From assembly GCA_903876885.1 (NCBI GenBank), contig CAIRBP010000049.1:64025-99207 (forward strand): 35,183 nt of DNA. Direction: 5' to 3'. The notes below the pieces were generated by a model. That model worked only from the letters and a program-made list of their open reading frames with translations. It did no database searches and was not told where the DNA came from. Each line of letters starts with the position of its first letter. The first letter of the stretch is position 1. Both the position numbers and the translations under genes were made by a program. Source of the stretch: an uncultured Burkholderiales bacterium. GTDB taxonomy: Bacteria > Pseudomonadota > Gammaproteobacteria > Burkholderiales > Burkholderiaceae_C. This document shows, one piece after another, positions 32,012 through 34,384 of the stretch.

Positions 32012-34384
32012 TTAGTTTATTTTAAAGATACTAACTGAGGCATTAACGTTTGCTTGGGTCCCGCCTATTACGCTTGCCAAACCCACTGCTGCTGCAGAAC
32101 TGAAGTTAACCAGACTCAAAGTGTCGCCCGCATTAAGCGATAAAACAATTTGTCCGTTATTTTGTTGAGTTCCTGCTCCAGACCCATAAATTGATCCGGG
32201 AGCAACTACCCCATTGACAAAGAGTCCAAACTGACTTGGTTCTGTTCCCGAAAGCGAAAAAAATACACTGTAAATGCCGCCACTATCTACTGTAATACCG
32301 GCTCCTCCTGGGGTGTGTTTTATACCCAATAAAACCCCATTGCTATCAAATAGCACCGATCCTTGAATTGCAATAGTTTGCGGAACAAGGTTATAGATAT
32401 AAGCGTAAGCGGATAGTCCTGCGCCACTTGCTCCTGGTGTACCCGGGGCACCTGTAGCACCTGTGGCGCCTGCACATATGTAAGTCGTTGAAGTTATCTC
32501 AGTGGACTCAAGGATATTGTTTGAATTTAAATCAAGACCAGAGGTTGCCTTTGAGCCACCAAAATTGCAATTTAAACCACTAGGCTCAACACTCAGATTT
32601 AAAAGTGTACTTAATCCATTGGTGCCGTTGTTTCCATTAGCGCCATTTAATCCATTACTACCATTACACACGTAACTAGTTGTGGTCACCTCTGAGGGGT
32701 CAAGTACTGCGTTTCTATTTGCATCAAGACCTGATGTCGATTTAGCTCCACCAAAGGTGCAATTAACTCCCGCAAACTCTGCAACGGTGGCAACTAGATC
32801 GTTAAAACCGTTTGAACCGCCCGCGCCAGTAATACCGTTACAAACATAGATTGTCGATGTCACCTCAAGTGGTTCGAGAATGCCATTTGAGTTCGTATCA
32901 AGGCCAGTATTGGTTTTGACTCCACCAAATGCGCAGTTACTACTGACTGGCTCGCTAACGAGGGAGACGAGCGTATTAAGTCCATTTATACCGTTACAGA
33001 CATAGGTTTCTGTAGTTACCTCCGATACATCAAGTAACCCGTTCATATTATTATCTAAACCTGACGTAGCTTTCGAACCACCGTTGGCACATTTCGCCCC
33101 TGCAGGCTCGACTGATAAAGCAATGAGTGACTTAGCTCCGTTAATAGCGTTGATTCCGTTACAAACATACGTAGTACTGTTTATTTCACTAATGTCTAAT
33201 AATCCATTTTTATTGATATCTAAACCTGAGAGAGTCTTTGACCCTCCATTGCCACAGTTTGACCCATTAGGTTCAACACTCATATTGACTAGTGTGTTAA
33301 GTCCGTTTGCGCCATTTGTACCGTTTGCTCCATCCATACCGTTTGAACCATTAAAACCATTAGTTCCGTTACATATGTAACTAGTTGACGTGACTTCTAT
33401 GGGGTCCAATACAGAGTTTCCGTTACTATCAGGACCTTGTGTTAATTTGATCCCTCCATTTGTACAGTGTGTACCCACAGGCTCGGATACGCTAAGAGCC
33501 AAAGTGTTGAGACCATTGGTACCCTGTGTACCATTAAATCCATTACAAACGTAAGCGGTACTATTGATCTCGGATGACTCCAGAATACCATCAGAATTAC
33601 TGTCTAAGCCTGCTGTAGTCTTTGTTCCACCGAAGAGGCAGTTGCCACCGCTGGCCTCTGATGCGACGACTAGGAGCGTGTTTATTCCATTCAGTCCATT
33701 TAGTCCATTCAACCCGTTCGTTGCGGTATTTCCGTTATTACCATTGCTACCGTTACAGACATAAGTTGTAGACACGACTTCATTGGTATCAAGCACTAAG
33801 TTGACGTTTACATCCAAACCGGATGTAATCTTTATTCCACCGTTGGGACAGTTTAACCCCGAAACCTCTGCGATACTCTTTGACAAAGTAGTTAATCCAT
33901 TTGCGCCATTTGCACCACTTGGACCAGTGAGTCCATTTGTTTTACTGGGGTCATTGATACCGTTGCAAATGTAGTTAAATGAGGTGACCTCTGATTGATC
34001 CAAAACCCCGTTTCCGTTTTGGTCTAGCCCTACACTAACCCGGCCTCCTCCATTAATACAATTAATTCCGGCAGGTTCACTGGCAACAGAAAGAAGATCA
34101 TTTTTAGCGTTTACACCATTTGCACCGCTACACACGAACTGCGTACTAGTTACCTGAGATAGACTTAGAACGGGGCTTCCTTTGGCAGTGATACCGGCCA
34201 TAATGGTTATCCCCCCGTTGGAGCAAATCGTAGAAGGTGCTGTATTTGATATTGAAATTCCAATCGAGGGATTTGCAACTGCAGCTATCCCTAGGATTTC
34301 TACTGAACTTCCACCACATGAAGATAGCAATGCGCTCGAGATCAATGTGCAAGCAAAAATAAAATTTTCTTTTCTAATATTCAT
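32012..34384 (-). CDS. Repeat-rich surface lipoprotein with calcium-loop repeats, collagen-like linkers and a BclA/C1q-like cap
   Basis: 790 aa. Lipobox LSSC puts lipidated Cys23 after a normal signal. Ten repeats follow from about residue 41, each of the form EPxGxNC-x-x-GG ... GLDxNxNGxLDxSEV ... YVCNG, so each has two Cys, probably a disulfide. Nine have an EF-hand-like calcium loop D-x-N-x-N/D-x-x-L-D/E-x-x-E. Linkers are collagen-like or Asn-Gly-rich (GLTGPSGANGANG, GATGATGAPGTPGASGAG). The last 135 residues (656-790) strongly resemble the C-terminal C1q-like domain of Bacillus BclA: SAYAYIYNL, FVNGVVAPGSIYGSGAG, NVNASVSIFKI. The middle repeats look like DUF7151. No ribosome site is seen before the ATG. 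Function is probably surface display or adhesion; the partner is unknown. Confidence 0.88.
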   Translation of the reverse strand: MNIRKENFIFACTLISSALLSSCGGSSVEILGIAAVANPSIGISISNTAPSTICSNGGITIMAGITAKGSPVLSLSQVTSTQFVCSGANGVNAKNDLLSVASEPAGINCINGGGRVSVGLDQNGNGVLDQSEVTSFNYICNGINDPSKTNGLTGPSGANGANGLTTLSKSIAEVSGLNCPNGGIKITSGLDVNVNLVLDTNEVVSTTYVCNGSNGNNGNTATNGLNGLNGLNGINTLLVVASEASGGNCLFGGTKTTAGLDSNSDGILESSEINSTAYVCNGFNGTQGTNGLNTLALSVSEPVGTHCTNGGIKLTQGPDSNGNSVLDPIEVTSTSYICNGTNGFNGSNGMDGANGTNGANGLNTLVNMSVEPNGSNCGNGGSKTLSGLDINKNGLLDISEINSTTYVCNGINAINGAKSLIALSVEPAGAKCANGGSKATSGLDNNMNGLLDVSEVTTETYVCNGINGLNTLVSLVSEPVSSNCAFGGVKTNTGLDTNSNGILEPLEVTSTIYVCNGITGAGGSNGFNDLVATVAEFAGVNCTFGGAKSTSGLDANRNAVLDPSEVTTTSYVCNGSNGLNGANGNNGTNGLSTLLNLSVEPSGLNCNFGGSKATSGLDLNSNNILESTEITSTTYICAGATGATGAPGTPGASGAGLSAYAYIYNLVPQTIAIQGSVLFDSNGVLLGIKHTPGGAGITVDSGGIYSVFFSLSGTEPSQFGLFVNGVVAPGSIYGSGAGTQQNNGQIVLSLNAGDTLSLVNFSSAAAVGLASVIGGTQANVNASVSIFKIN
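32420..34264 (-). repeat. Ten tandem 50-70-codon repeats in the surface lipoprotein gene
   Basis: The repeat block covers residues ~41-655. Units are 50-70 codons with a constant core (two Cys, a GG, a calcium-loop pattern) and linkers of changing length, from ITGAG-like spacers to stretches of N-G triplets. The first unit is the most diverged and lacks the calcium loop. DNA identity between units is partial, so they look old rather than freshly duplicated, but the similar cores could still recombine. Confidence 0.85.

Follow-up and report, generated by a model that had tools for sequence, protein, structure and literature searches.

The window, by which we mean the whole stretch of 35,183 nucleotides that was analysed, contains on its minus strand an open frame starting at an ATG that codes for a predicted lipoprotein of 790 amino acids. 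Behind a signal peptide this protein consists of ten DUF7151 repeats separated by short Gly-rich linkers, a last collagen-like stretch and a C-terminal head. The parts of the gene are the following (basis in parentheses).

32012..34384, minus: whole gene of the predicted lipoprotein, 790 aa (open frame with ATG start; full-length relative, 70% identical, in genome G026, with many synonymous changes)
34316..34384, minus: signal peptide and lipobox L-S-S-C23, followed by G-G (sequence and pattern rule)
34130..34261, minus: DUF7151 repeat 1, Cys pair present, EF-type loop lost (profile and motif positions)
33965..34096, minus: DUF7151 repeat 2, loop DQNGNGVLDQSE (profile and motif positions)
33755..33886, minus: DUF7151 repeat 3, loop DVNVNLVLDTNE (profile and motif positions)
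33545..33676, minus: DUF7151 repeat 4, loop DSNSDGILESSE (profile and motif positions)
33371..33502, minus: DUF7151 repeat 5, loop DSNGNSVLDPIE (profile and motif positions)
33161..33292, minus: DUF7151 repeat 6, loop DINKNGLLDISE (profile and motif positions)
32996..33127, minus: DUF7151 repeat 7, loop DNNMNGLLDVSE, at the core of the model of one repeat (profile, motif positions, AlphaFold2 model)
32840..32971, minus: DUF7151 repeat 8, loop DTNSNGILEPLE, modelled as a tandem together with repeat 7 (profile and motif positions)
32666..32797, minus: DUF7151 repeat 9, loop DANRNAVLDPSE (profile and motif positions)
32474..32605, minus: DUF7151 repeat 10, loop DLNSNNILESTE (profile and motif positions)
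32606..34129, minus: span with the nine linkers that separate the repeats, each made of 2-8 triplets, 46 triplets in total, 41 of them Gly-first (Cys-to-Cys gaps, triplet count)
32420..32473, minus: last collagen-like stretch, one Ala and then GAT GAT GAP GTP GAS GAG (GATGATGAPGTPGASGAG) (sequence)
32015..32419, minus: C-terminal BclA_C/C1q-type head (PF18573, PDB 9h38 and phrog_30509 matches)

The lipobox LSSC23 agrees with what is expected of a bacterial lipoprotein, a signal peptide with Cys at +1, according to a pattern rule rather than a trained predictor. This lipobox and the analogy with other systems suggest that the protein may be placed on the outer surface of the cell. The type II secretion secretin GspD was not found in the source genome, which is 68% complete.

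A Pfam search of the 790-aa protein recognized DUF7151 (PF23657) in ten stretches with an E value of 1.5e-146, the family that the sequence-only reading had named for a profile search, and in a profile search of the source genome all ten repeats scored above the family cut-off. That reading had also described two Cys per repeat, and the pairs are indeed present in all ten (54/85, 109/140, 179/210, 249/280, 307/338, 377/408, 432/463, 484/515, 542/573 and 606/637), always with a spacing of 31. The motif positions equally confirmed a loop in nine of the ten repeats, in which D-x-N-x-[ND]-x-x-L-[DE]-x-x-E starts at residues 121, 191, 261, 319, 389, 444, 496, 554 and 618. These loops follow the consensus of the 12-residue EF-hand loop, for which the available text of Rigden et al. 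2011 (PMC3123361) gives ligands at 1, 3, 5, 9 and 12, a hydrophobic residue at 8 and usually Gly at 6. The strict pattern was never matched in 5000 shuffles of the protein, against the nine matches observed. Calmodulin has a stronger ligand set than these loops, in which position 5 is mostly Asn and Gly is found at position 6 in only five of the nine, the number given in the earlier description. The loop of repeat 1 is missing in G026 too, but the first repeat of a shorter relative in genome G007 reads DVNANQILELTE.

The fold of repeat 7 was predicted by AlphaFold2 from an alignment of 112 relatives, taken from a diverse set of 168 rows out of 227, with a pLDDT of 93 and a pTM of 0.65. The model has strands at residues 2-8, 18-24 and 38-45, the EF-type loop sits between predicted strands 2 and 3, and a three-residue helical turn closes it. 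A model of repeats 7 and 8 together had a pLDDT of 84.6 and a pTM of 0.49, so that the relative orientation of the repeats in it is unreliable. The helices that lie on either side of the loop in an EF-hand were not seen, strands being predicted in their place, and the EF-hand Pfam models reached at best an E value of 0.036 with the 790-aa protein, below their cut-off. Dockerins have a helix after the loop; here a strand follows it and no dockerin model was among the nine Pfam matches at E<=1. The predicted flanking strands thus indicate that the DUF7151 repeat has neither the EF-hand nor the dockerin fold. With a profile of 22 repeats, into which no EF-hand sequence had entered, all PDB sequences were searched; there were 27 matches at E up to 10, the best with a whole-sequence E of 0.0042. 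Judging from their names we take them to be 25 EF-hand proteins, one engineered calcium-binding Z domain (Z-Ca) and one invariant surface glycoprotein. The alignments cover the loop, and they are short and pass mostly as whole-sequence sums and not as single stretches. Fold searches gave support neither for nor against. Of the EF-hand or dockerin-type loop proposed from the sequence, the loop stands, being conserved and picking out EF-hand loops by profile, and the fold does not, given the predicted flanking strands. Most likely the DUF7151 loop works like that of an EF-hand even though the domain is not one.

The loop could be followed in the whole family. Loci were gathered by profile (E <= 0.001) from the source genome and its relatives, with matches in 3 of 61 genomes of the genus and order, 17 of 369 of the class and 15 of 398 of the phylum, the source genome being included in each of these counts; 3, 14 and 14 of these genomes, respectively, were above the family cut-off. 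To these were added one plasmid record, two of eight phage records, five of the seven pattern loci in viral contigs and, among the matches listed, 115 of 120 pattern loci in named genomes, those that yielded a repeat by profile. Of the five named-genome loci that dropped out, L109 and L124 lie on contigs equal in length to those of L039 and L037, which were already in the set, and the profile did not match L092, L099 or L150. The result was 575 repeat matches in at least 186 open frames, or 164 frames after removal of redundancy, and 423 distinct repeats, of which 33 incomplete ones were set aside. By their records the family members come from proteobacteria, Myxococcota, Bacteroidota, Nitrospirota, Campylobacterota, Poseidoniales archaea and phages. 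Among the 390 complete distinct repeats, all of them recruited by profiles that know the loop positions, which leaves a residual bias, D1, [DN]3, [DNS]5 and E12 occur together in 372 and both Cys in 387. Because the pattern used in the DNA scan holds part of the loop (L8, E12 and the second Cys lie wholly outside it), the 194 distinct repeats outside the scan pattern were checked separately, and they have D1 in 98%, N/D3 in 93%, N/D/S5 in 98%, L8 in 93% and E12 in 97%. Going by its residues, the EF-type loop is a trait of the DUF7151 family, which we would describe by two Cys some 31 residues apart around a loop D-x-N-x-N-G-x-L-D-x-x-E; lack of conservation at these positions, which would have spoken against the proposal, was not what we found. 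The calcium reading of the loop is, by this conservation, well supported, though short of proof. The comparison with G026, a genome of the same genus whose protein also has ten repeats, gave a similar picture at close range: in the nine looped repeats positions 1, 3, 5, 8 and 12 are identical in 45/45 cases, position 9 in 6/9, and positions 2, 4, 6, 7, 10 and 11 in 28/54. Three distinct phage repeats are the mirror image of repeat 1 of the window, with both Cys lost and the calcium loop kept (residues 105-140 and 168-206 of the L073 frame and 105-140 of the L074 frame).

The linkers between the repeats had been described as flexible and collagen-like. They are collagen-like, with Gly first in 47 of the 52 triplets of this protein, and simply flexible they are not, since the triplet register is kept throughout: the Cys-to-Cys gaps between repeats measure 24, 39, 39, 27, 39, 24, 21, 27 and 33 residues, all nine being multiples of three, as are all nine in G026. 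Even the five exceptional triplets (AKN, DPS, KTN, ATN and AIN) keep the register. The Collagen model PF01391 reached 24.7 bits with the 790-aa protein, below its cut-off of 27.2, and an independent triple helix is doubtful, given how short the linkers are and that they are almost without Pro. Of 47 linker Gly compared between the window and G026, 45 are kept, 26 of them although their codon differs; of the other linker residues 49 of 94 are kept. The six indels between both proteins have 3, 3, 3, 3, 3 and 9 residues, and the BLASTP alignment puts all of them in linkers or in the last collagen-like stretch; a separate labelling of regions placed two of them on the borders of a repeat and the head. 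In the family, leaving out repeats without the Cys pair and gaps above 90 residues, 152 of 221 gaps are divisible by three (134 of 203 when the window and G026 are excluded) and 69 are not. Collagen-like linkers, with at least four consecutive Gly-X-X, follow the rule in 83 of 98 gaps and the other linkers in 69 of 123. Among the 49 proteins with at least two measured gaps, 21 are in register throughout and 28 have at least one gap off register, so that the triplet rule holds well in collagen-like linkers and poorly in the others. At least five consecutive Gly-X-X triplets were found in 111 of the 164 family proteins, against a shuffle mean of 4.45.

The earlier description did not include the C-terminal head, which has to be added to it. 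This part belongs to PF18573 (BclA_C; E 7.3e-11, 42.5 bits versus a cut-off of 38), and residues 655-789 match PDB 9h38 with an E value of 4.8e-16. The latter is the crystallised C-terminal head of F-BclA, the collagen-like tip fibre of the F-ENA of Bacillus thuringiensis, and BclA-C is placed in the TNF/C1q superfamily in the part of that work available to us (PMC11952670). As a molecule name the 9h38 entry has "Flagellar hook-length control protein FliK", at odds with the depositing paper, in which it is F-BclA. The homology to 9h38 and the C1q/TNF placing suggest that the head would assemble as a trimer of the C1q/TNF type. Within the genus this head was found in 4 of 84 genomes and all four proteins carry DUF7151 repeats, ten in the window, ten in G026, two in G007 and at least three in G819, where the protein is cut by a contig edge and the profile recognises two complete repeats and a piece of a third. 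A constant head with a variable number of repeats fits a stalk of variable length. A mobile origin was also considered; the ten neighbours scanned are ordinary metabolic, transport and regulatory genes (3-hydroxyacyl-CoA dehydrogenase, BKACE, TctC receptors, a GntR regulator and others), and tblastn with the head found nothing in phages or plasmids at 1e-5. By profile, residues 628-789, i.e. the last collagen-like stretch and the head (window 32015-32500), match phrog_30509, annotated as "collagen like minor tail", with an E value of 9e-38.

In the rest of the family the C-terminal parts are diverse. After setting aside 26 of the 164 proteins, with tails shorter than 80 aa, 99 of the remaining 138 tails were scanned and 39 left out, and ten whole proteins were scanned as well. 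Among the best 25 of 55 tail families the Pfam matches include 8 collagen, 7 receptor L domain, 5 phytase-like, 5 sortilin/BNR, 4 RCC1-type, 3 BclA_C, 2 alkaline phosphatase and 2 lactonase tails. With such variable C-terminal parts, DUF7151 together with Gly-X-X has the look of a stalk module in general use near a putative lipid anchor. Many heads of the family are propellers or enzymes, which are not known to us as trimers, and it is only with a head of the BclA/C1q kind, such as the present one, that the argument for a trimer is strong. The pattern rule for the lipobox fits 99 of the 164 family proteins and does not fit 53, several of which look like near misses, while in 12 the N-terminus is cut. 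Many members of the class of the source organism have an acidic C-x-G-D-D-G stretch directly after the predicted lipidated Cys (L030, L031, L046, L052, L058, L059, L102, L155, L156, L164, L192 and L197), which might be a sorting or surface-export signal.

The reading that we favour, with moderate confidence, is that the gene codes for a trimeric, lipid-anchored and collagen-like stalk with a disulfide and a calcium loop in each repeat, presenting a C1q-type head. The lipid anchor at the observed lipobox would hold the stalk to the membrane, and three chains would probably join via the C-terminal head, presumably trimeric by homology, and the Gly-X-X linkers. The ten DUF7151 mini-domains observed in each chain would stand at a fixed phase between the linkers, each one a predicted three-stranded sheet closed by one disulfide between the conserved Cys. 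In nine of the ten, Ca2+ would be bound in the 12-residue EF-type loop, whose residues are conserved, between predicted strands 2 and 3. The disulfide and the calcium would hold these thin domains in their fold, so that the stalk would stay extended outside the cell, where the head would make contact, possibly in adhesion. By a rough estimate such a stalk would be about 70 nm long, with about 44 nm for the 52 triplets at the 2.8 A per residue used in PMC11952670 and an assumed 3 nm for each of the ten domains.

The most serious competitor keeps the calcium and gives up the trimer. It takes the protein as a monomeric, calcium-stabilised spacer, a rod of one chain on the pattern of the SdrD B repeats (a precedent described in the accessible text of PMC3775735), with the Gly-X-N linkers acting as hinges or polyglycine-II-like strands and no trimer except perhaps at the heads. 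Linkers of only 2-8 triplets that are almost Pro-free, a Collagen model below cut-off and the phytase-like, lactonase, propeller, RCC1 and phosphatase heads of the family would all suit such a rod. Against it, the triplet register is kept in 9/9 linkers, in all six G026 indels and in 83 of the 98 collagen-like family linkers; moreover the head of this very protein is of the BclA/C1q kind. We consider the monomeric rod rather unlikely.

Two other alternatives concern the calcium. The loops might be a structural relic or ion-free here, with the disulfides alone holding the repeats and the acidic loop a mere turn, as could be thought from repeat 1, loop-less yet with its Cys kept both here and in G026, and from the 18 of 390 complete repeats without the strict ligand set. 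Against it, precisely positions 1, 3, 5, 8 and 12 are unchanged with respect to G026 while the intervening ones vary (45/45 versus 28/54), and the 3 distinct phage repeats that lack both Cys still keep the loop, making the ion-free reading improbable in our opinion. Alternatively, calcium could be a signal or a glue in place of a stiffener, if the loops bridged neighbouring fibres or the fibre retracted when calcium drops. The conservation of the loop in the family and with respect to G026 would be expected under this idea too, as would 2 to 10 repeats under the same head within one genus. Nevertheless, each loop appears to have its own full EF-type ligand set and bridging would then be unneeded, and we give this last alternative very little credit. 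Returning to the trimeric calcium-loop stalk, a wider form of it can be put forward only tentatively and is, in our view, possible but doubtful. Here DUF7151 would be a new context for the EF-type loop, a 45-residue "rivet" of three strands, one disulfide and one calcium that interrupts collagen-like triple helices at a fixed phase with the register unbroken, and a standard stalk of surface lipoproteins in bacteria, archaea and some phages. The three rivets at each break would form a calcium-dependent joint, and the stiffness of the fibre would track external calcium.

Several known systems share part of this design. All ten repeats are members of DUF7151, whose Cys pair and loop are common to the family; Pfam assigns it no function, and no paper was found for it by name in the open-access literature. 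The head of F-BclA (PDB 9h38) is homologous and likewise follows a Gly-X-Y stretch, but in the available part of PMC11952670 it belongs to the collagen-like tip of spore appendages, whereas the protein of the window is from Gammaproteobacteria, lipid-anchored as far as its sequence indicates, and has a stalk punctuated by DUF7151. In Staphylococcus aureus the B repeats of SdrD and SdrE stand in tandem on the surface and every one has an EF-hand loop, and SdrE was stabilised by calcium in the melting assay of the authors; these repeats differ, in the text of PMC3775735 accessible to us, in having 110-113 residues and in occurring with CnaB domains in Gram-positive wall proteins. No CnaB-type family was among the Pfam matches of the 790-aa protein at E up to 1. 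The Bucl proteins of Burkholderia are Gram-negative, have Gly-X-Y regions and include some predicted lipoproteins, as here, and the word "calcium" is absent from the accessible text of their description (PMC4565658). With regard to the loop itself, strand-loop-strand contexts of the EF-type loop are listed by Rigden et al. 2011, and the Dx[DN]xDG calcium loops found outside EF-hands have the loop rule in common with DUF7151, which differs in its mostly Asn position 5 and is absent from the contexts in the available portion of that paper (PMC3123361). The sequence-only reading had known of no characterised rod with this make-up. The SdrD B repeats (PMC3775735, as far as its accessible text goes) are a precedent for surface repeats with EF loops that bind calcium, and the principle as such is not new. 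Neither its combination with a collagen register nor such a role for DUF7151 was found in print in searches of the open-access literature, one of which was covered by title and abstract start for the first 20 of 244 papers.

A small, widespread and unstudied domain thus gets a concrete and cheap question, whether it binds calcium. If it were so, many unannotated lipoproteins would gain a mechanism, collagen-like fibres a calcium-dependent building block, and the known contexts of the EF-type loop another strand-loop-strand case.

Two groups of family records deserve mention on their own. The Maribacter phages Colly_1 and Molly_1 code for a "tail fiber protein" with six DUF7151 repeats (L073:6001-8007 and L074:6001-8016) that, read from an upstream Met, has a lipobox-type start (MKKISLFYCLLMVLTLVGC) and is next to a gene of the OmpA family. 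Instead of a tail fibre, this protein may be a surface lipoprotein encoded by the phage; in the accessible text of the paper on these phages "tail fiber" does not appear and the single "lipoprotein" concerns another protein. Finally, DUF7151 together with Gly-X-X is also found in archaeal records labelled Poseidoniales, Thermoplasmatota, Thalassarchaeaceae and Euryarchaeota (L095, L114, L118, L119, L128, L145, L181, L190 and L193).
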